In this document: piece after piece, positions 951-27,334 of the stretch | Layout: each line of letters begins with the position of its first letter | Numbering within the stretch: position 1 is the first letter of the stretch | Source: Candidatus Margulisiibacteriota bacterium | GTDB taxonomy: Bacteria; Margulisbacteria; Riflemargulisbacteria; GWF2-39-127 | Assembly: GCA_003242895.1 (NCBI GenBank) | Contig: QKMY01000063.1 | Span: forward strand, 1 to 45,339 | Length of the DNA stretch: 45,339 nucleotides | Direction of reading: 5' to 3' | The notes under the pieces: generated by a model | Database searches by the model: none | Told to the model about the DNA's origin: nothing | What the model saw: the letters and a program-made list of their open reading frames with translations, nothing else | Translations under genes and position numbers: made by a program

Positions 951-963
951 AGTAATGGTAATA

Positions 964-1316
964 GGGCAGGTAAGCCTATAAGCCGAGTTCTGTCGTGTAT
1001 GATTATTTCTCTGGGATTATCATCACTGATAACCTCAAGCGACCAACCCAGGAATCGTAACGGAACGAGCAGTTCCTCTTCCCCTATTTGGTCTTGCACT
1101 GAATGGGGTTTGCCAAGCAAGCATATTGCTACGCTTCTGGTGAGCTCTTACCATCACCATTTCGCCCTTACCACCGGATTAGAGTGGCGGTATATTTTCT
1201 GTTGCACTATCCGTAAGATTACTCTTCCCACTAGTTAAGTGGCATTCTGCTCTGTAGTGCTCGGACTTTCCTCATATAGTAAGAGTACTATACGCAACCA
1301 TACAGCCTACCTGCCT
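964..1316 (-). ncRNA. rnpB: RNase P RNA (bacterial type A-like)
   Basis: This is the catalytic RNA of ribonuclease P, which trims tRNA 5' leaders together with the RnpA protein (31813-32151 here). On the minus strand it carries the universal 5' motif GAGGAAAGTCCGAGC, a GGTAAGAGCTCACC-type helix, the CCCCAT...GTGCAAGACC segment, AATAGG, and the 3' motif ACAGAACTCGGCTTATAG. The ends pair as helix P1: GGCAGGTAGGC near 1316 with GCTTACCTGCC near 964. The length of about 353 nt is normal for the family. A small plus-strand reading frame across this stretch is a chance shadow. No intrinsic terminator is visible before the next gene. Confidence 0.97.
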
Positions 1317-8784: not shown

Positions 8785-9897
8785 CTAACTCATACGCTTG
8801 TGAAACCTGATAATTGCAAGGGAGAGCATCGTACTCCCATAAAGTGACAAAGATATGATTTCCGGAACCAGATCGGACACACCAGATCCTTTTAAGTAGA
8901 TTCCGCGAATAACATCCATGAAATACTTAAGAGGATCAAGATAAGTTACAATTTGTACCCATGGCGGCATATTTTCTATCGGGATAAAAAAACCGGATAA
9001 TAAAATCGCGAAGATGGAAAAAAACCAGGCGTAAAACATAGCTTGCTGCTGGTTCGTAGCGATAGTAGAAATAAAAATCCCCACACCCAGAGTTGAGAGC
9101 ATAAACAAAACGCTGATCACATACAATAATAGAAGATTTCCTTTCATCCAGATACCAAAGATTAGTCCTGCAGCCAGCATTCCTACATTCAGCATTACAA
9201 ATCCCATAATCGCAAAGGGTATAATTTTACCGACAATTAATTCCCGACCTTTAATAGGAGTAACTAATAACTGCTCCAATGTACCGATTTCTTTTTCTCT
9301 TACAATATTAATCGATGCCAGAAAAACCGTGATCATGGTTAACAGCATCACCATGATTCCAGGAACAATATTATAGACACTATCTAAATTAGGATTATAG
9401 AGCATCCGTGTCTGAGTCTCAATAATATGGCGTGGTTGCGCTGAGGGGAGAGCCATAGTCATATTCCGTTGCAATTGCTTGAATATCTGAGTTAAATAGC
9501 CCAAGGCGATGCCCGCCGTGTTCCCATCGACGCCATCAACTATCGCTTGTATTTCAGGAGTTTCTCCACTTAAAACGTTGTTTTCAAAATGCTGTGGGAT
9601 GACAATCGCCAGCTTGATCTTTCCGGAATCCATTTTCTTGACTGCAGCTTCCGTTTGATCAGTACTCCCTTTTATAGTAAAAAACTCGCCGGAACTAACG
9701 GTTCTGATAATTTTGCGGCTTAATTGAGACCGGTCCATATCAACATACATCGTCGAGATATTCTTCACATCTGTCGTTATCGCGAATCCTAAAATAACGA
9801 GCTGAATAAACGGCATCACAAAAATAATTACCAGATTTGCTTTCAATCGGAAAATTTGACGGAATTCTTTCTGTATAAGATAAAGTATGTTACGCAT
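8785..9897 (-). CDS. ABC-2 exporter permease (second permease, YbhR/YhhJ-like)
   Basis: This is the membrane subunit of an ABC-2 type exporter, about 370 residues. It has one N-terminal transmembrane helix (about residues 22-42), a large periplasmic domain (about 45-175), then a five-helix ABC-2 core. The core contains the family segment IVREKEIGTLEQLLVTPI on the cytoplasmic side and ends around LDPLKYFMDVIRGIYLKGSG. A TTG at 9900 precedes the ATG at 9897; I take the ATG, which overlaps the previous gene's stop by 8 bp. It is the last gene of a seven-gene unit and pairs with the permease upstream. Confidence 0.9.
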   Translation of the reverse strand: MRNILYLIQKEFRQIFRLKANLVIIFVMPFIQLVILGFAITTDVKNISTMYVDMDRSQLSRKIIRTVSSGEFFTIKGSTDQTEAAVKKMDSGKIKLAIVIPQHFENNVLSGETPEIQAIVDGVDGNTAGIALGYLTQIFKQLQRNMTMALPSAQPRHIIETQTRMLYNPNLDSVYNIVPGIMVMLLTMITVFLASINIVREKEIGTLEQLLVTPIKGRELIVGKIIPFAIMGFVMLNVGMLAAGLIFGIWMKGNLLLLYVISVLFMLSTLGVGIFISTIATNQQQAMFYAWFFSIFAILLSGFFIPIENMPPWVQIVTYLDPLKYFMDVIRGIYLKGSGVSDLVPEIISLSLYGSTMLSLAIIRFHKRMS

Positions 9898-10996
9898 CAA
9901 GGTTCACTCGAAACTTCTTAATACTCACTATAATTAAAACCAACGATAATAAAGTTAAAAAAGATATCTGACTTATCAATTCAGGAATTCCTACTCCCTT
10001 GAGCATTATTCCCCGAATAATCTGAACAAAATGGCTGGCTGGTATTATTTTTGATAACCACTGGAACAATATCGGCATGCTTTCGATCGGAAACATAAAC
10101 CCACTGAGGAGAAAGGTAGGAAGCATAGTACCCATTAAGGCCATCATCATTGCAAGCTGCTGAGTCTGGGCTATCGTCGAGATTAACAAACCCAAGCTGA
10201 GACCATTGAAAATATACAGAAGCATCATCAGTAAAAGCAAGAGAAGAGAACCATTAACCGGAACATTAAACCAGAATACTCCGGCAAAAAGAATGATAAG
10301 CCCGTCTATAAATCCAAGGATCAAATAGGGGATTAACTTCCCAATAATTATTTGTATTGGATTAATCGGACTCACCAGCACCTGTTCCATCGTGCCTTTT
10401 TCTTTTTCTCGAACAATTGCTAAACTGGTCAATAAAGCGCTTATCAGCAATAAAATAACGGCAACGAGCCCAGGCACAAAATAATTTGCAGATTTAAGGT
10501 CGGGATTATAAAGAAATCTCGGCTGTAAAGTAAACAGAGCCGAATTGCTTAGGCTCATTTCTAGGTTGCTTTGATTAACAATATTATTAACATAATTGCT
10601 GATTAGTTTAGCGCCATTAGGATCACTCGCATCAATTATCACCTGCAGATATGTCACAGGAGAATCAACAATACCGGTAGAATAATCTTTTGGAATAACA
10701 ATGATACATTTGGCTTCTCTTCTTCGAAAAACCGTATCAATAGAAGATTCATCGATATGGTTGAGCTCTACTTCAAAGAAATTGCTGGAGACTAGCTTTT
10801 TAACAAATAACCGGCTTTCCGGTGTTTTCGACAAATCAGAAACGATAGTTGGAATATTTCTCATTTCTAACGTAATTGCATACCCATAGAGAAAGATCAT
10901 CGCAATCGGCATTATTATGATAATGAGTAACGTTTGAGGATCCCTCAAAATATGAAAAAATTCTTTCTTAATAATACTCAGTAAGAGTGATTTCAT
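9890..10996 (-). CDS. ABC-2 exporter permease (first permease, YbhS-like)
   Basis: This 368-residue ABC-2 membrane subunit has the same layout as its downstream partner: an N-terminal helix (about 22-40), a periplasmic domain, and a five-helix core with IVREKEKGTMEQVLVSPI and the C-terminal PASHFVQIIRGIMLKGVG signature. The two permeases are paralogous but clearly different, so they likely form a heterodimer driven by the two ATPases encoded just upstream. The start ATG abuts the stop of the ATPase gene, sharing one base, which indicates tight translational coupling. Confidence 0.9.
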   Translation of the reverse strand: MKSLLLSIIKKEFFHILRDPQTLLIIIIMPIAMIFLYGYAITLEMRNIPTIVSDLSKTPESRLFVKKLVSSNFFEVELNHIDESSIDTVFRRREAKCIIVIPKDYSTGIVDSPVTYLQVIIDASDPNGAKLISNYVNNIVNQSNLEMSLSNSALFTLQPRFLYNPDLKSANYFVPGLVAVILLLISALLTSLAIVREKEKGTMEQVLVSPINPIQIIIGKLIPYLILGFIDGLIILFAGVFWFNVPVNGSLLLLLLMMLLYIFNGLSLGLLISTIAQTQQLAMMMALMGTMLPTFLLSGFMFPIESMPILFQWLSKIIPASHFVQIIRGIMLKGVGIPELISQISFLTLLSLVLIIVSIKKFRVNLDA

Positions 10997-11730
10997 TAAT
11001 CTTCCCTTTTCACAATTGCCAGAAAAACATCTTGCATGGTAGTTAAATTATATTTTTCTTTTAATCTCTGAGGCTCATCAATTTCTGCGATTTTACCATC
11101 TTTCATAATACTCAAACGATTACAGTACTCGGCCTCATCCATATAATGCGTAGTAACGAAAATGGTCTTTCCCTTTTCAGCCAGCTCATATATCAGCAAC
11201 CAGAAATTCCTGCGCGATATTGGGTCGACTCCGCTTGTCGGTTCATCCAAAAAAATAATCGGCGGATCATGAAGGATCGCGGTACTTAAGGCTAATCGCT
11301 GCTTCCAGCCTACCGGCAACGAACCTGTTAAGTCATCGGCATGGTCCCATAAATGCAAATAAGCCAGTAATTCTTCTATTTTTAATTTAATTGCCTTACG
11401 GGAAAGGCCATAAACTCCCCCATAAAACTCAATATTTTCTCGAACAGTCAGATCTTCATAGAGGCTGAACTTCTGGCTCATATAGCCGATATTCAGCTTA
11501 ATCTTCTCACTCTCGGTATAAAGATCATATCCAGCAACATACGCCTTCCCGGACGTAGGTAATAATAAGCCGCACAACATCCTGATGGTTGTTGTTTTGC
11601 CTGCTCCGTTTGCGCCAAGGAACCCAAATATTTCTCCTTGTTTGACAGCAAAAGACACGTTGTTAACTGCTACGAACGAGCCAAACCGGCGAGTTAAATG
11701 TTCTACTTCTACAGCATAGTTACTTTCCAC
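10996..11730 (-). CDS. ABC exporter ATP-binding protein (second ATPase)
   Basis: This 244-residue nucleotide-binding subunit has Walker A GANGAGKTT near residue 40, a Q-loop at YMSQKFSLYEDL, and a deviant signature LPVGWKQRLALS in place of LSGGQ. That variant is typical of the second half of YbhF/RbbA-type exporters. Walker B IIFLDEPTSGVDP and the switch histidine in VTTHYMDEAE follow. The missing LSGGQ suggests an asymmetric ATPase pair with the neighbouring gene. E. coli YbhF fuses both halves, whereas here they are separate genes 4 bp apart. Confidence 0.93.
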   Translation of the reverse strand: MESNYAVEVEHLTRRFGSFVAVNNVSFAVKQGEIFGFLGANGAGKTTTIRMLCGLLLPTSGKAYVAGYDLYTESEKIKLNIGYMSQKFSLYEDLTVRENIEFYGGVYGLSRKAIKLKIEELLAYLHLWDHADDLTGSLPVGWKQRLALSTAILHDPPIIFLDEPTSGVDPISRRNFWLLIYELAEKGKTIFVTTHYMDEAEYCNRLSIMKDGKIAEIDEPQRLKEKYNLTTMQDVFLAIVKRED

Positions 11731-11734
11731 AAAA

Positions 11735-12649
11735 TCAAACCCTTTGTTTACTTAATAAATTCAAAAAAACGTCCTCTAACTTAGGCTGAATGGGGACGAT
11801 ATCGTCAATATGGTATTCACTTAGCTGATCTTGAATCCGGGACAATCCCAGATTATATTCATCAACTAAATGAACTCCCTCGCCAAAAAGTTGAATAGAA
11901 TCCATATATTCTGTTTGCTGCAATCGTTTAAAAGTTTGGTGGGGTGCCTGAGTTTTTAACAAATAAAGCGGTAACGTGAAATTATCAACAAACTCTTGCG
12001 GCGTATTTATGCCTAACATTTCGCCGTCGTAAATAAGACCGATCTTTGAACATTCAGCCGCTTCTTCCATATAGGGAGTAGAAATTAAAATCGTAATTCC
12101 CTTCTCAGACAATTCGTGCAATATCTGCCATAACTCATTTCGTGATAAAGGGTCAACACCAAAAGTCGGCTCATCCAAAATGATGACTTCCGGTTCATGC
12201 ATGAGCATACACGATAAGGCTAACTTTTGCTTCATTCCACCGGATAGAGCGCCTGCTCGCCTACCACGAAAAGGTTCTAATCGAGAAAATCCGTACAATC
12301 GTTCTTTGCGATTATCCTGAAGATCTTTTGGAACTCCAAAAAGATCACCAAAAAAATTCAGATTCTGCTCGACGGTAAGGTCCTGATAAAGGCTAAATCT
12401 CTGTGGCATATAGCCAATGTTGCTTCTTACATATCTGATGTTATCCGTAATATTTTTGGATTGAAATAAAACACTGCCGGTATCCATCTTTAGTAGCGTT
12501 ACAATAATTCTCATTATCGTTGTTTTGCCAGCACCATCCGGTCCGATAAGTCCGAAAATCTCCTGTTTGTTTACTTCAAAAGAAATATCTTTAACAACGT
12601 GCTTCATGCCATAACTTTTTTTTAACCTATCAACAATTAATGGTTTCAT
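11735..12649 (-). CDS. ABC exporter ATP-binding protein (first ATPase)
   Basis: This 304-residue nucleotide-binding subunit has Walker A GPDGAGKTT near residue 38, a Q-loop at YMPQRFSLYQDL, a canonical-type signature LSGGMKQKLALS, and Walker B VIILDEPTFGVDP. The switch position reads STPYMEEAAE where many ABC proteins have a histidine (STHYMDEA), so it may be an impaired hydrolytic site. The other ATPase keeps the histidine but has a deviant signature, so the two are complementary. A C-terminal extension of about 70 residues follows the ATPase core. The gene lies 6 bp after the adaptor gene. Confidence 0.92.
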   Translation of the reverse strand: MKPLIVDRLKKSYGMKHVVKDISFEVNKQEIFGLIGPDGAGKTTIMRIIVTLLKMDTGSVLFQSKNITDNIRYVRSNIGYMPQRFSLYQDLTVEQNLNFFGDLFGVPKDLQDNRKERLYGFSRLEPFRGRRAGALSGGMKQKLALSCMLMHEPEVIILDEPTFGVDPLSRNELWQILHELSEKGITILISTPYMEEAAECSKIGLIYDGEMLGINTPQEFVDNFTLPLYLLKTQAPHQTFKRLQQTEYMDSIQLFGEGVHLVDEYNLGLSRIQDQLSEYHIDDIVPIQPKLEDVFLNLLSKQRV

Positions 12650-12655
12650 AAAAAG

Positions 12656-13540
12656 CTACCTTGTAAGCGTTACTTCTACAGGCATTCCGATTTTTAAGGC
12701 TCCAGAAATATTATGGACCTTAATTTTGACTTCATAGACGAGCGATGTTCTGGTCTCTTTGGTTAATATCGTCTTTGGTGTAAACTCCGCTTCCGAGGCA
12801 ATCCAGGACACCGTCCCTTCAATTGGAGCAGGACTTCCATCGACACTGACATAAGCAGTCTGACCAATCTTTATCGTCAATAACGTCTTGGTAGGGATAT
12901 AAATATATACATTCATTTTTTCCAAATCCGCAATCTCTGCTAAAGGAGTCCCGGGACTTACGAGCTCTCCGGCATTACGGTACTTATTCACTACGGTTCC
13001 TCGAATTGGCGAAAGAACCTCTGAGTTCTTAATCTGAATATTGGTTAATTGAATCACGGTATTCGCTTGTTCAATTCTGTTTTTTGCGAGATTATAATTG
13101 GTTATTAATGTCCTAAGCTGCGCATCTGCTACCTTTGTCTGCGTTGCCAGCTCATCCCTTAGCTGTACGGTTGCCGCACCTTCGGTAACTAATAATTCTG
13201 TTTTCAATAAAAGCTCATGATTAAGATCAATTTGAGGCTGAAGTTGCTGCATTTGTGATTCGATCGATTCCAAGCTTAACTCTGCTTCCCGAACTTTTTC
13301 ATACTGAAGCTGTCTTTGGACTGCTACATTCTCAGTATCAACTCTGGCGATAACCTGTCCGGTGACGATTGCATCTCCCTCTTCCAGATCGAATTGCCTG
13401 ATAATTCCTGTTCCTTGAGAAGATAATTTTATTTTTGTTGCCTCAATCTGACCGCTATAAGTATCAAGTTTTTTGTTTGTTGTACATCCTTGAATCGTCA
13501 CCATCAGCCCAATAATAAGAAATATTTTTAAGTTACCCAT
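12656..13540 (-). CDS. HlyD-family periplasmic adaptor lipoprotein
   Basis: This membrane-fusion protein links the inner-membrane ABC exporter to the TolC-like channel. I place the start at the ATG at 13540 (294 residues) because GGAGG lies 9 nt upstream. A GTG five codons earlier overlaps that ribosome binding site. A lipobox IQGC near residue 18 predicts lipid anchoring. Then come a biotinyl-lipoyl-like half motif (EGDAIVTGQVIARVD), a coiled-coil hairpin (about residues 60-155), the second lipoyl half (VLSPIRGTVVNKYRNAGELVSPG) and a beta-barrel domain. It is shorter than HlyD itself and resembles YbhG/YhiI. The start codon overlaps the tolC-like stop as TAATG. Confidence 0.92.
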   Translation of the reverse strand: MGNLKIFLIIGLMVTIQGCTTNKKLDTYSGQIEATKIKLSSQGTGIIRQFDLEEGDAIVTGQVIARVDTENVAVQRQLQYEKVREAELSLESIESQMQQLQPQIDLNHELLLKTELLVTEGAATVQLRDELATQTKVADAQLRTLITNYNLAKNRIEQANTVIQLTNIQIKNSEVLSPIRGTVVNKYRNAGELVSPGTPLAEIADLEKMNVYIYIPTKTLLTIKIGQTAYVSVDGSPAPIEGTVSWIASEAEFTPKTILTKETRTSLVYEVKIKVHNISGALKIGMPVEVTLTR

Positions 13541-14826
13541 TAATTTAACCTCCACTCAGAAATCGGCATTCCACTCAAATAATCAATTTCTATAACTTTT
13601 AATGATATCTTTACTTTATGCTGTTCAAGCAGGAGTTCTGCTTCAGTAAATTCATTGTTTGCCGCATTAACATCGGTAAGAGTACTGAACCCACGATCAG
13701 CCTGATTTCTAACAAGCTCCATTTTTGTTCGGGCAAGGCTCGCAGATTCTTTCAAATAATCTAATTGTTTCAGCATTGTCTTGGATTCTCTTACTGTCGC
13801 GTCATAGGCAAGTTGTATCTGATCACGCGAATGTTGTTCTTGATAGTCAAGGACAGCCATTTCTTTATTTTGAGCGTTTACATTTGCCTTAGAGGTACCA
13901 GAGTCCCACAGGTTCCATCTAATTCCAGCGCCTACTGAGTAATACCCCATCCATTCATTATCTATAGGGTTCACTCCTGGTTTTGCATATTTATAAGTAG
14001 CGCTTAATGAAATATCAGGATAATCTTTGGATTTATTAATGATTTGATTAGCTTCTGATACTTGCTTTTTTATGAGATAGGTTTTGATTTCTTCCTTTTC
14101 TGCTAAATTTAACGTGGAGGCATTCATATCCGTCATATATTTTGAGGTGGCACTAATCGTAACCGGTTCGCCTACCATTGACTTGAGCTGATCTAAATTA
14201 TTTGAGATATTTGAATTAATTTCCACAAGTTGCTGCTCATATCGTGATATTGAAAGCTTTAAAGTCAGTTCATCCGTTACCAATGCCATGCCTTGATTAA
14301 TCAGCGCACGTATTTTTTGCACGTGGTTATTCACCCGTTCTTTTACAGCATTTATAATTTCTTTCTGGGCTAATAGCACGTTTGTATTCATATAAACTTT
14401 TGCGACATTAAACGCGATATCTTTTTCATTCTTCTTTAATTGCACTTCAGCCACCTGCTTCTGCAGATGTTTGAGCTGAATTGTCGCTTCCCTGGAATAC
14501 CCGTTGAATAACAAATATGATGTGCCTATTCCTAATTCATAATTATTATTAACTCCGGTCTCAATCTTCCGTGGCGGGAGCGCAATAGACGGGACCTCGC
14601 TAATATACCGGTATGAAGAATCTATTATCACAGAGGGAAGATATTGCTTCTGAACAGCCTCGATTTCGTAATCCGCTTTTTCTATTGTTTCACGTGAAGC
14701 TTTCATTATAAAATTATTTTTAACTGCTTTTGCGATGAGGCTACGCAAATTTTCTGCTTTCGCTTGATATGGAGATAAAAACAAAAACAATAATCCAACT
14801 ATCATTACAATCTTTTTCCGATTCAC
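13540..14826 (-). CDS. TolC-family outer-membrane efflux protein
   Basis: This 428-residue outer-membrane channel subunit probably trimerises to give the exit duct for the ABC exporter. It has an N-terminal signal peptide (about residues 1-24, cleavage after AKA). Two tandem outer-membrane efflux repeats follow (about 28-220 and 235-420), each with long heptad-like helices and short strands such as YELGIGTSYLLFNGYS and YSVGAGIRWNLWDSGTS. The start is GTG, overlapping the tetR stop as GTGA, with an excellent AAGGGGTGAT ribosome binding site. The coding sequence contains a parS-like palindrome at 14686-14701. Confidence 0.9.
   Translation of the reverse strand: MNRKKIVMIVGLLFLFLSPYQAKAENLRSLIAKAVKNNFIMKASRETIEKADYEIEAVQKQYLPSVIIDSSYRYISEVPSIALPPRKIETGVNNNYELGIGTSYLLFNGYSREATIQLKHLQKQVAEVQLKKNEKDIAFNVAKVYMNTNVLLAQKEIINAVKERVNNHVQKIRALINQGMALVTDELTLKLSISRYEQQLVEINSNISNNLDQLKSMVGEPVTISATSKYMTDMNASTLNLAEKEEIKTYLIKKQVSEANQIINKSKDYPDISLSATYKYAKPGVNPIDNEWMGYYSVGAGIRWNLWDSGTSKANVNAQNKEMAVLDYQEQHSRDQIQLAYDATVRESKTMLKQLDYLKESASLARTKMELVRNQADRGFSTLTDVNAANNEFTEAELLLEQHKVKISLKVIEIDYLSGMPISEWRLN
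14686..14701. promoter_or_regulatory. second parS-like site inside the tolC-like gene
   Basis: TGTTTCACGTGAAGCT matches the ParB consensus TGTTTCACGTGAAACA at 14 of 16 positions, keeping the central TTTCACGTGAA. It lies 10.9 kb from the first site. Chromosomal parS sites inside genes are common in other bacteria. Whether ParB binds this one depends on the two mismatched outer bases. Confidence 0.6.
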
Positions 14827-15458
14827 TGGTTATCACCCCTTGGCTTTATACCATAATATATTGTCTCAAAAATTGACTGCTTTCGTTCCTCTATAAAACG
14901 ACTGGTATCGTAACTATCCTTAACTATAAGAATTTTGATCAATGGTTCTGCCAAAAAATAATACACACAGGCACCGATTATTGTAATCATTAATTGCCGA
15001 ACATTACCTTTTATAATGTTTCCATCCTTTTGAGCATTCTCCAGTAGTTTAATCAGTTTAACAGGAGGAATTGACTCGATCGCTTTGGTTATATTCGAAA
15101 TCTGTTTATTTAAGACGGCTCCTCCTTCGCTTAGCTCTCGGCACATAAATGAGACAAATTTAGGATTGTCCCGCAAAATATCAATATACATATAAATGAA
15201 CGTCCTGAGACTTTCTTCAAACGGTACATCGGCTTCTAATAAAATATTTATTTGGCTAAAGTATCGTACGAATATTGTTTCAAATATTTTTTCATACAGC
15301 GTTTCTTTATTTCTGAAATAGTAGTGCAGCAATGCCTTGTTCACTCCGGCTCGATTAGCGATATCCTGCATCCTTGCGCCTGAGCGGCCCTTCTCGATGA
15401 AAACATCCATTGCGGCTTTAATGATAAGCTCTTCTTTAGAAACATCTTGATTATTCAT
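14823..15458 (-). CDS. TetR-family transcriptional regulator
   Basis: This regulator of about 211 residues has an N-terminal HTH (AAMDVFIEKGRSGARMQDIANRAGVNKALLHYYFRNKETLYEKIF) where the family profile is nearly perfect. A helical ligand-binding domain follows, similar in length to YbiH/CecR-type regulators that control YbhGFSR exporters. I prefer the ATG at 15458; a TTG three codons upstream lies too close to the AGGA ribosome binding site. It is the first gene of the exporter operon, so it probably represses its own promoter and the pump until a ligand binds. Confidence 0.92.
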   Translation of the reverse strand: MNNQDVSKEELIIKAAMDVFIEKGRSGARMQDIANRAGVNKALLHYYFRNKETLYEKIFETIFVRYFSQINILLEADVPFEESLRTFIYMYIDILRDNPKFVSFMCRELSEGGAVLNKQISNITKAIESIPPVKLIKLLENAQKDGNIIKGNVRQLMITIIGACVYYFLAEPLIKILIVKDSYDTSRFIEERKQSIFETIYYGIKPRGDNQ

Positions 15459-15473
15459 TCCCGCCAATTCCTG

Positions 15474-15529
15474 ACCATTCGGTTAAACTATGTGGTTAAT
15501 GTATAACATCTTTTAAATTTACATGTCAA
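15474..15529 (-). promoter_or_regulatory. promoter and probable operator of the tetR-exporter operon
   Basis: On the minus strand there is a -35 TTGACA (15529-15524), an 18-bp spacer and a -10 TATACA (15505-15500). Between the -10 and the start codon lie two GGTTAA direct repeats (plus strand, 7 bp apart) and an imperfect inverted repeat ACCATTCGGT (15474-15483). This is where a TetR dimer would block transcription. Confidence 0.65.
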
Positions 15530-15889
15530 TGCTGCTATGTCAAAATTATCGGACCAGTCCATTGTTAGTTTTCTATAATTATTCAAAAAAATTTTAGATT
15601 CTTGATTTGGTCGAGACCAGATTTATCCAAAACAAGATATTCGCTGACACAAAAAAAGCCAAAAGCTCGAATTTTTGCCTATAACGGAAGATTTTTGCAC
15701 AGAAGACGTATACACCATGATCTCTTGAAATTACAACCCAGAAACGATTTAAAAAGGGTGGTTAAATTAGCATTTTCAACAAATGAAAGCGCGTGTACCG
15801 TTATGTTAGTGCATAAATAATTTGTTCGATTTCACTTTAAAATATTGAATATACATTTTTTCCGGTAAAGCTTAAAATACTAAAATATA
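15530..15889. other. intergenic region without a clear gene
   Basis: This is the divergent gap between the exporter operon and the CDF-like gene. A 72-codon frame at 15602-15820 (plus) begins with TTG, has no ribosome binding site and an unusual basic composition, and I do not regard it as a gene. I found no RNA gene and no clear promoter for the CDF-like gene. Confidence 0.4.
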
Positions 15890-16798
15890 ATGAAAAAAAA
15901 CAACACAAGTAGTGATAAAAAAAAAGAAAAAATCTTAAGGAACGGATGGCTCTTCGGGGTTTGCGGAATCGGCTCCTCAGTAATTGCCTTATATTTAGGA
16001 AGATCTACGACACAGCTAGCTGATCTTATCAGAAAAAGCTGCGAGACTCTTGCTGTTTTTCTGTCCTGGCTTACCTTTCGGAAGTCTAGCGAGGAAACAA
16101 ACCAAAGTTACAATTATGGATATGGCAAGCTGGAGAACCTGGCAAGCCTTATTGTCGCAGAAGTTATCATTATATCATTTTTTGTAATAGTCTATAATGC
16201 CATGACTCGTATGCAAAATCCAAGTCCTGTTGGTAATTTATGGTTCGGCTTTCTGCTGGCAATAAACGATTTTGCGCTCAATTCCTGGTTTTGGAATCAG
16301 AATTATAAATTGGCACAACAAACCTATACCCCAATAATGGAATCGCAATGGAGACTATATCGTATCAAAACCATTATTAATGGCTGTGTTATCCTTATTT
16401 TGGGTTTAACTATGCTTTTTAAAACTTACGCCTGGTCTCTATTCATCGATCCGGTGGGCTCTCTTCTGGTAGCAATATATTTACCTATCTCTGCATATCA
16501 TATTGCCAGGCAATCAATTCGTGAGCTATTGGACCGAGCGATTGTCGACGTTGGCCTGCTTAATCTCATCAAGCAAGTAATTGGTTCCAGCGGTAACGAT
16601 CACCCAAAACTAGTGAATATTCGATCAAGGCAAGTTGGCTGTCATAAGCATATTGAGCTTATTCTAGAATTTGATGGGAATACCTTATTAACTGACATTC
16701 AGTCGGTATCTTCTTTCATAGTGGCTGACCTTGAAATCCGAATTCCAAACAGCATAATAGCCTGTATCCCGGCGGCAAGAATATCTAAGTCTTTTTGA
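15890..16798 (+). CDS. cation-diffusion-facilitator homologue lacking transport-site ligands
   Basis: This 302-residue protein has CDF architecture: about six transmembrane helices (residues 18-205) and a C-terminal cytoplasmic domain (about 215-300). The family segment YGYGKLENLASL after helix 2 is well kept. By position it lines up with E. coli YiiP, whose zinc site A uses D45, D49, H153 and D157. Here the same positions are D45, K49, Q153 and Y157, so three of four ligands are lost. In typical members helix 5 reads HWRVD; here it reads QWRLY. It is therefore unlikely to move zinc or iron in the standard way; a changed substrate or a sensing role is inference. No Shine-Dalgarno is visible. 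Its stop codon directly abuts that of the convergent epimerase gene. Confidence 0.75.
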   Translation: MKKNNTSSDKKKEKILRNGWLFGVCGIGSSVIALYLGRSTTQLADLIRKSCETLAVFLSWLTFRKSSEETNQSYNYGYGKLENLASLIVAEVIIISFFVIVYNAMTRMQNPSPVGNLWFGFLLAINDFALNSWFWNQNYKLAQQTYTPIMESQWRLYRIKTIINGCVILILGLTMLFKTYAWSLFIDPVGSLLVAIYLPISAYHIARQSIRELLDRAIVDVGLLNLIKQVIGSSGNDHPKLVNIRSRQVGCHKHIELILEFDGNTLLTDIQSVSSFIVADLEIRIPNSIIACIPAARISKSF

Positions 16799-17764
16799 TT
16801 AAAGAAGTCCCCGTTCACGATATTCATTAATTATTTTCGTTGAACCATCTATACATGAATATTTAGGCATATATTCAAGAACGTTTTGAGCTTTAGAAAT
16901 ATCTATCCGTCTTTGCCTGGTTAGCCGCTTGATGTACGATCGAGTTATTATTGGGTCCTTGTTGCTAAACCTCGAAACAAACTCATAAAACAAAGCAACA
17001 ATATTAACTAACCAGATAGGAATACGCGTCGTAACTGCTGGCAGACCAAGCCCACGCCGAAAGGCCTTATAGACATTTTCATAGGTCATCGGTTCCTGAT
17101 CTGCTATATTAAATATCTGCCCATAAGCTTTCTTGTTTCCTAAAACCAACAACAATACATCGGCTACGTCCTCAACATAAACTAAATGCCAATAATTCTT
17201 TCCGGAGCCCATTACAGGGATTCCCTTTTTTACCTTTTTAAATACATCTAACCATACAGGCTCTACTCCGTATACCATTGTTGGCCTGATTATGGTAATC
17301 GGTAAATTGTATTTTTTGTTAAATTCTAAGACTACTTTCTCTGCTTCACATTTAGTTTTCTCATAAGGAGTTTGTGGACAGTATAACGCATCTTCTTTTA
17401 CCCCTTCTGCTGGCGTTGGCCCGAGGACTCCAATAGTACTGGCAAAAATAAATTGCTTAATATTCCATTTAACAGCTACCTCCAAAATATTTTTCGTAGT
17501 AATAACATTAGCTTGATAGAGTTCATTATAAGAGTATTTTTCTTCTTTAATACAAGCTAAATGGTATACGATATCATATTTGTTTTCTAGATTTAGCACT
17601 TCATCAAGATTTAAAAGGTTACATTCAACGATGTCACACCCGGCGATAGCCTGGCCACCTTTATTACGTGTAACTACGGTGATTAGATGATTTTCATTTT
17701 TTTTTAGTCTTTCTATTAAATGCCTACCGATAAAACCAGTTCCGCCGGTAATAAGTATTCTCAT
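16799..17764 (-). CDS. NAD-dependent epimerase/dehydratase (extended SDR)
   Basis: This 321-residue extended short-chain dehydrogenase/reductase has the N-terminal NAD(P)-binding GGTGFIG, a catalytic serine in FASTIGVLG and the YEKTK (YxxxK) motif near residue 140. IIRPTMVYG in the substrate-binding half marks sugar-nucleotide or sterol/flavonoid-type reductases of the atypical/extended class. The exact substrate cannot be read. It is transcribed towards the CDF-like gene and has no operon partner, so context does not help. Confidence 0.85.
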   Translation of the reverse strand: MRILITGGTGFIGRHLIERLKKNENHLITVVTRNKGGQAIAGCDIVECNLLNLDEVLNLENKYDIVYHLACIKEEKYSYNELYQANVITTKNILEVAVKWNIKQFIFASTIGVLGPTPAEGVKEDALYCPQTPYEKTKCEAEKVVLEFNKKYNLPITIIRPTMVYGVEPVWLDVFKKVKKGIPVMGSGKNYWHLVYVEDVADVLLLVLGNKKAYGQIFNIADQEPMTYENVYKAFRRGLGLPAVTTRIPIWLVNIVALFYEFVSRFSNKDPIITRSYIKRLTRQRRIDISKAQNVLEYMPKYSCIDGSTKIINEYRERGLL

Positions 17765-27249: not shown

Positions 27250-27334
27250 CGGAGAGATAGAGATTCGAACTCTAGATATCTTGCGATATACACGCGTTCC
27301 AGGCGTGCGCCTTAAACCACTCGGCCATCTCTCC
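27250..27334 (-). tRNA. serX: tRNA-Ser (GGA anticodon)
   Basis: This class II tRNA of 85 nt has acceptor stem GGAGAGA paired with TCTCTCC, and D-arm GGCCGAGTGGTTTAAGGC. The anticodon stem CACGC/GCGTG holds loop CTGGAAC (anticodon GGA, reading UCC/UCU). A long variable arm and T-arm GAGTTCGAATCTC complete it. CCA is not encoded. It stands alone between the LRR lipoprotein gene and the GAF protein gene. The symbol serX follows E. coli usage and is only a label. Confidence 0.97.

Follow-up and report, generated by a model that had tools for sequence, protein, structure and literature searches.

A conserved subfamily of cation diffusion facilitator proteins with basic residues at metal-binding positions

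Results

The gene and its surroundings

The window, i.e. the whole stretch of DNA that was analyzed, is 45,339 nucleotides long and contains an intact open reading frame for a protein of the cation diffusion facilitator (CDF) superfamily, running from ATG to TGA with no internal stop (Table 1). Downstream, the stop of a NAD-dependent epimerase gene (assigned by Pfam) abuts the stop codon of the CDF gene, and the nearest gene upstream, a TetR-type regulator (Pfam), is oriented away. Since the downstream neighbor is convergent and the upstream one points away, the CDF gene stands alone. Its GC3 of 0.38 is similar to that of six nearby genes (0.27-0.38), and by this measure the gene hence bears no mark of recent acquisition.

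The intergenic gap upstream of the CDF gene holds one frame open for more than 50 codons. The run of genes on the minus strand listed in Table 1 includes, according to Pfam, a TetR regulator, an outer-membrane efflux protein, a HlyD-type protein, an ABC ATPase and an ABC-2 permease, together with a second ATPase and a second permease that were judged by eye. The window also harbors a class A RNase P RNA and a tRNA.

Table 1. Features of the window, with the codons of the residues discussed in the text.
Feature	Position	Strand	Remark
RNase P RNA, class A	963..1313	-	
Gene run on a single strand	8785..15467	-	
Gap upstream of the CDF gene	15468..15889		about 420 bases
CDS, CDF protein without the YiiP metal quartet	15890..16798	+	302 aa; stop codon included in the span
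D45 codon	16022..16024	+	conserved TM2 acid, off the YiiP site A ligand positions; D in 22/22 rows
R48 codon	16031..16033	+	YiiP D45 position (site A); basic in 20/22 rows
E52 codon	16043..16045	+	YiiP D49 position (site A); acidic in 22/22 rows
K80 codon	16127..16129	+	YiiP K77 position (dimer charge interlock); K in 22/22 rows
L156 codon	16355..16357	+	YiiP H153 position (site A); L in 22/23 rows
K160 codon	16367..16369	+	YiiP D157 position (site A); K or R in 23/23 rows
D187 codon	16448..16450	+	TM6 acid; D in 23/23 rows and in 11/11 comparison CDFs
D215 codon	16532..16534	+	YiiP D207 position (dimer charge interlock); D in 23/23 rows
NAD-dependent epimerase gene	16799..17764	-	convergent
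tRNA	27250..27334	-	

Family assignment and fold

The window protein is matched by the Pfam family Cation_efflux (PF01545) with an E-value of 3.3e-28 (99.2 bits against a cut-off of 26.6) and by TIGR01297, the NCBIfam model of the CDF superfamily, with 86.2 bits, just above the cut-off of 82.35. At E <= 0.001 the latter model matches all 11 rows of the alignment designated A2, the row of the window protein lying over the cut-off. The equivalog NCBIfam models all score below their cut-offs, namely FieF (81.6/420 bits), MntE (55.2/500), ZitB (49.7/408) and MamV (28/500), and PF16916, by which Pfam models the C-terminal domain of CDFs, gave no match at E <= 1. The protein has the YGYGKLENLASL motif.

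An AlphaFold2 model of the monomer, computed from a five-sequence alignment (A1), has a mean pLDDT of 78.7 and a pTM of 0.62, and displays six long helices followed by a helix-strand-strand-helix-strand tail corresponding to the C-terminal domain (CTD). YiiP chains rank first for this model in Foldseek. The best match in VIA-align is likewise a YiiP chain, 8f6k_B (Z 24.1 over 280 residues, rmsd 8.0 Å), with other YiiP chains and ZnT chains next; across the first five rows, YiiP chains lie at an rmsd of 8.0 to 12.0 Å. Taken alone, the CTD (residues 221-302) matches the CTD of MamB with a Z of 11.2 and an rmsd of 2.8. The high overall rmsd may originate from a differing placement of domains or helices, and no geometry is drawn from the model. 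The window protein is a member of the CDF superfamily with the YiiP fold, and both fold and family are certain.

Residues at the metal-binding positions

The site A quartet of YiiP, D45/D49/H153/D157 in E. coli numbering (D47/D51/H155/D159 in the S. oneidensis protein), was located in the window protein using a HMMER alignment to S. oneidensis YiiP, gapless from residue 39 to TM5, and a MAFFT alignment with 11 other CDFs. Both pair the quartet with R48, E52, L156 and K160. In the 11 comparison CDFs, position 48 is H (8), D (2) or E (1), position 52 is D (10) or N (1), and positions 156 and 160 are invariably H and D. No canonical ligand is left in the window protein, whose quartet departs from the D/H/N/E ligands of YiiP-like metal transporters, and the change from D49 to E52 is the sole conservative one.

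The original prediction, that the metal ligands had been replaced in a retained CDF fold, is upheld on both counts, by the two alignments for the ligands and by Pfam, TIGR01297 and the top structural match to YiiP for the fold. The positions that it named, D45, K49, Q153 and Y157, are correct as residue numbers of the protein itself but do not align with those of YiiP: the register was off by three, and we rejected it, as both alignments disagree with it. D45, taken at the time for the one retained ligand, is a different TM2 residue, at which the comparison CDFs have D (7), E (2), S (1) or T (1). K49, regarded as the site lysine, is a lysine in only one of 22 rows of the subfamily described below. 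Q153 is conserved in 22 of 23 rows, yet it lies outside the quartet and is D in seven of the 11 comparison CDFs, and the place ascribed to Y157, opposite D157 of YiiP, belongs to K160. A lysine does sit in the site, in the form of K160, and the roles originally suggested for such a lysine, namely a different ion, a proton-only role or a sensor, may each apply. As for the refuting case named at the outset, canonical ligands displaced by a few residues, it was the earlier register that was shifted, but its correction makes the ligand loss more complete.

The other metal sites are also altered. Site B of E. coli YiiP consists of D68, H71 and H75 (PMC6465983), and the window protein has N71, Y74 and Y78 in their place; in the subfamily, 20 of 22 rows have Y or F at position 74, an equal number have them at position 78, and H occurs at neither. 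At site C, V242, I258 and Q271 stand where YiiP has histidines, and the window protein contains no histidine beyond residue 280. Across the 22 subfamily rows that cover the CTD, H is found at position 242 in 10, at 258 in one (F in 16) and at 271 in four; since H242 is kept in 10 of 22 rows, the loss of site C is not uniform in the subfamily. K77 and D207, which form the charge interlock of the YiiP dimer (PMC6465983), are by contrast matched at the residue level by K80 (22/22 rows) and D215 (23/23 rows).

Delineation and distribution of the subfamily

Searches with the single protein sequence returned no relative of the window protein in genome contigs, and a plasmid search at E <= 1e-25 was likewise negative. 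The query was also run against the genus, family, order, class and phylum of the window genome (1, 1, 1, 8 and 74 genomes, its own included), where the thresholds applied yielded no relative beyond its own genome, i.e. 1/74 for the phylum at E <= 1e-24. A degenerate DNA pattern coding for D-x-x-R-x-x-x-E and [YF]-G-x-G-[KR]-x-E, whose R codon also reads S, retrieved 12 stretches, of which four are members according to tblastn, with 33-42% identity to the window protein. They originate from a Halanaerobiales MAG, two Nitrospira/Nitrospiraceae MAGs and one unclassified bacterium.

The remaining pattern matches were set aside. L009, L010, L014 and L015 were rejected because tblastn gave no CDF match at those places. 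L004, L006, L008 and L013, from Lachnospiraceae and Eubacterium records, are other CDF-like proteins, as indicated by Pfam for L004 and L006 (Cation_efflux plus ZT_dimer) and by likeness judged by eye for L008 and L013. They make up an odd CDF group of longer proteins, about 380-410 residues, with a stretch beyond the ZT_dimer domain; by eye, the site A positions on TM2 read S and E, and those on TM5 S and H.

Searches with profiles built from the four members gave matches in 8/395 genomes of the phylum of L012 (E <= 1e-40) and, at E <= 1e-45, in 11/45 genomes of the phylum of L005, 5/398 of that of L011 and 1/398 of that of L010, fractions that are not strictly comparable as queries and thresholds differ and seed genomes are counted in. 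Three of the five matches in the phylum of L011, a Halanaerobiales record, were dropped (L062-L064), their quartet being of the canonical H/D type, which leaves two. Pattern scan and profile searches together yielded 23 rows from 23 genomes. Judging by these sequences, the subfamily is conserved, patchily distributed and built on the CDF fold. Its members combine R or K at position 48 and E or D at position 52 on TM2 with K or R at position 160 on TM5; the site B histidines are lost, and K80 and D215 of the interlock are kept. Across the 23 genomes, the replaced site marks a conserved subfamily rather than a broken gene, in line with the original view that the gene is maintained.

An operon partner was sought by clustering the open reading frames within 9 kb of the member at the 23 loci. 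Apart from the member itself, no cluster exceeded four loci, and the clusters that reached four were all from Nitrospirota. A gene of the Pup-ligase family (Pfam on the L012 copy) lies upstream of the member, on the same strand, at four Nitrospirota loci, at a distance of 161, 100 and 104 bases for L067, L072 and L073, respectively, and of 946 bases for L066. An epimerase-type gene adjoins both the window gene and L060, two cases only and in different orientation, and at two loci (L050 in G484 and L105 in G483) the same gene for a small membrane protein lies ahead of the member.

Conservation and phylogeny

Position 48 is R in 18, K in two, H in one (L067) and L in one (L065) of 22 rows, position 52 is E in 19 and D in three, position 156 is L in 22 and N in one of 23 rows, and position 160 is K in 22 and R in one. 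L059 lacks the first half of the protein and is hence uncounted at N-terminal positions, the missing half lying on a separate contig and carrying the expected R and E. Because L067 has H48 and L065 has L48, the full R48-E52-K160 trio is not universal; the signs of the charges at the three positions mostly hold across the 23 genomes while the residue letters vary. With quartets written as the residues at 48 and 52 followed by those at 156 and 160, 15 of the 21 full rows show RE-LK, and KE-LK, RD-LK, LD-LK, HE-LK, RD-NK and KE-LR occur in one row each. Among 30 other CDF rows we found HD-HD (17), ED-HD (5), DD-HD (3), ND-DD (2), HD-ED, YD-HD and EN-HD (1 each), and a K or R in none of these 30 quartets.

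In the tree, the 21 subfamily rows form a single clade (100/100) against the 30 other CDF rows. The clade is not an artefact of the site, since its SH-aLRT support stays at 100 with 14 site columns removed. L059 and L061 were left out of this tree as partial sequences, and the program warns of long branches, that of L065 included. The nearest row to the window protein is that of the Halanaerobiales MAG (100/98). The row that diverges most is L065 (phylum of L010), with an LD-LK quartet; its membership rests on the tree together with K160, Q153 and N131. L061, encoded on the minus strand near the middle of its locus on a 3.26 Mb contig, ends after TM6, and neither tblastn nor the frames that follow reveal a CTD. 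Its motif is without the GYG, yet it keeps R48, E52, K160, K80 and D215, and it may be either a lean member or a decaying copy.

Over 18 thinned rows, the ten top-scoring columns include N131, K80, Q153, D45, D187, D215 and K160; E52 ranks 18th and R48 39th of 302. N131 is found in 23/23 rows. With D45, E52, D187, N131 and Q153 invariant or nearly so, a divalent metal might still be transported through a displaced site made of these five residues. D41 and D184 of MceT, needed for Zn2+ diffusion in that CDF (PMC6440370), would correspond to D45 and D187 on the basis of motif spacing. Such a site nevertheless appears unlikely: it would have to accommodate the basic side chains of R48 and K160 at two quartet positions, no histidine is found at the site B histidine positions in 22 rows, position 258 of site C is dominated by F as given above, and D187 is equally conserved in canonical CDFs, so that it provides no argument for a new site.

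Among the 134 columns taken as membrane, three (45, 52 and 187) are acidic in at least 75% of the rows, and four (48, 107, 158 and 160) are basic at the same level. The conserved basic residues at 48, 158 (R in 18/23 rows) and 160 could be read as a net-positive pocket of R48, R158 and K160 carrying an anion or a zwitterion. We consider this quite improbable, as the conserved acids at 45, 52 and 187 lie in the same bundle, and R158 is replaced in five of 23 rows and is also R in five of the 11 comparison CDFs.

The loss of the metal quartet alongside an invariant K80/D215 interlock would also fit a pseudo-transporter, i.e. a silent subunit regulating or stabilizing a canonical CDF by pairing with it, as ZnT6 does with ZnT5. 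ZnT6, devoid of two ligands, is considered the auxiliary protomer of the ZnT5 pair (PMC7949119). Partners would be at hand: the window genome carries two other CDFs, and a further CDF match is present in 20 of the 23 host genomes (Pfam, E <= 0.001), one of the three matches in G483 being the member's own other half on another contig. This idea is weakened by the three genomes (G499, G515 and G517; assembly completeness not given) in which the member is the only CDF at the same threshold, and on contigs that carry a member, no other CDF match lies closer to it than 170 kb, many contigs being short. A silent site, moreover, does not need opposite charges at fixed places, and we regard this reading as rather doubtful.

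Selective constraint

Synonymous and nonsynonymous differences were counted by the Nei-Gojobori method. Among the four closest Nitrospirota rows (six pairs), dN/dS was 0.11-0.17, against 0.11-0.19 for ten canonical CDF pairs from the same five genomes; the four pairs involving L068 gave 0.23-0.31, against 0.15-0.19 for the canonical CDFs of the same genomes. The L050/L059 pair, over about half of the gene, gave 0.06, and the L053/L055 pair was saturated and provided no value. Close member pairs are constrained like ordinary CDFs, the comparisons with L068 being somewhat looser and still well under 1. Relaxed selection, raised at the outset as an alternative, is therefore not what the closest pairs of the subfamily display, their dN/dS resembling the canonical values.

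For the window gene itself, the best identity is 39-42%, and no relative is close enough for dN/dS; this isolation could be taken to speak for a decaying or drifting copy of a normal CDF gene. Its open reading frame is intact, however, identical replacements recur in distant genomes, and purifying selection acts in close pairs of other members, which makes decay extremely improbable.

Discussion

A putative charge group in place of the metal

A transition metal is probably not what the protein moves; it would have a different substrate, or none. Based on the sequence evidence, we tentatively favor a transporter whose metal would be replaced by a buried R48-E52-K160 charge group, perhaps for the exchange of H+ with a monovalent or organic cation, both substrate and mechanism being putative. 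We infer that R48, E52 and K160 meet because they occupy the places of the YiiP quartet. Their side chains would form a buried ion-pair group where YiiP holds Zn2+, a place thus filled from within, and no divalent transition metal would be bound there. The protein would most likely work as a homodimeric secondary transporter. In the resting state, E52 (and D45) would be the partners of the tethered ammonium and guanidinium groups. Binding of a proton, or of a monovalent or organic cation, at the acids D45, E52 and D187 would break and remake this pairing as the helices rock. A more specific version, drawn by analogy and rather doubtful, would be an antiporter on the CDF fold, in which R48 and K160 alternate with the substrate cation or the proton at E52, D45 and D187, amounting to a convergent lysine switch of the NhaA type.

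Several observations count against the favored charge-group reading. The trio is not universal, and R48 falls short of the best conserved columns. A metal could still bind to D45, E52, D187 and N131, the site C residue H242 persists in 10 of 22 rows, and dN/dS with L068 is looser than for canonical CDFs. The side chains of R158 and R107 may point toward the lipid headgroups or the cytoplasm, and no widely conserved neighbor gene among the open reading frames within 9 kb of the 23 loci points to a substrate.

Consequences for annotation and mechanism

The score of the window protein against TIGR01297 leads to the automatic label "cation diffusion facilitator family transporter", a name that points to a metal exporter. 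For a conserved subfamily without the YiiP-type transport site, such an automatic label can mislead. The subfamily also provides a natural test to separate the parts of the scaffold that serve transport in general (D187, N131 and the interlock) from those that serve the metal. If true, the ion-pair mechanism would show how a metal site turns into a proton or monovalent-ion switch.

Comparison with known systems

Fold and family are known, the site appears new, and the function proposed here is a deduction from sequence. The text of PMC5703985, which divides the CDF superfamily into 18 clades without spelling out all of them, names the quartets HD-HD, ND-DD, DD-DD, DD-HD, EN-HD, HH-DH and HD-ED, none of which includes a K or an R. 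In the open-licence literature, searched mostly at the level of abstracts, we found no description of a CDF subfamily with basic residues in site A, and no paper on the proteasome in Nitrospira.

YiiP/FieF, with its DD-HD site A, is the best structural match and shares with the window protein the whole fold, the length, the GKxE motif and the positions of the K77-D207 interlock; the ligands of sites A and B are replaced in the window protein, as are the three site C histidines compared (V242, I258 and Q271). Site A of YiiP has a Kd of 16 nM for Zn2+ at pH 7 (PMC10617992). MamV, a magnetosome CDF, has the superfamily in common, but its model scores 28 bits against a cut-off of 500 and the match starts at residue 61, past the TM2 site. 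ZnT6 of the ZnT5-ZnT6 pair, compared through its description in PMC7949119, resembles the window protein in being a CDF deprived of site A ligands; it has lost two of them to hydrophobic residues, whereas all four are changed in the window protein, two of them to basic residues.

MceT, the "Na-CDF" reported as a Na+(Li+,K+)/H+ antiporter whose TM6 acid D184 is needed (PMC6440370), is also a CDF with an altered site, and its TM2 acid D41 and TM6 acid D184 would correspond to D45 and D187 here. It was studied in the E. coli strain KNabc, which is deficient in Na+/H+ antiporters. By its published residues, MceT has Y44-S45-S48 and Q150-D154 where the window protein has R48-K49-E52 and L156-K160. 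The Na-CDF motif (Y44-S45, Q150-D154) is accordingly absent: D45 and D187 are present, and R48, K49, L156 and K160 differ.

NhaA and NapA belong to a separate superfamily, and no homology with them is claimed. The analogy is confined to the proposed mechanism, in which a lysine at the ion site forms a salt bridge with an acid. In NhaA, K300 and D163 form such a lysine-aspartate salt bridge (PMC6181914). One model proposed for NhaA/NapA has the bridge break upon ion binding, PMC6181914 itself favoring an indirect role for the lysine. Should the antiporter reading be true, the subfamily would represent a second route, beside that of MceT, away from metal transport in the CDF superfamily.
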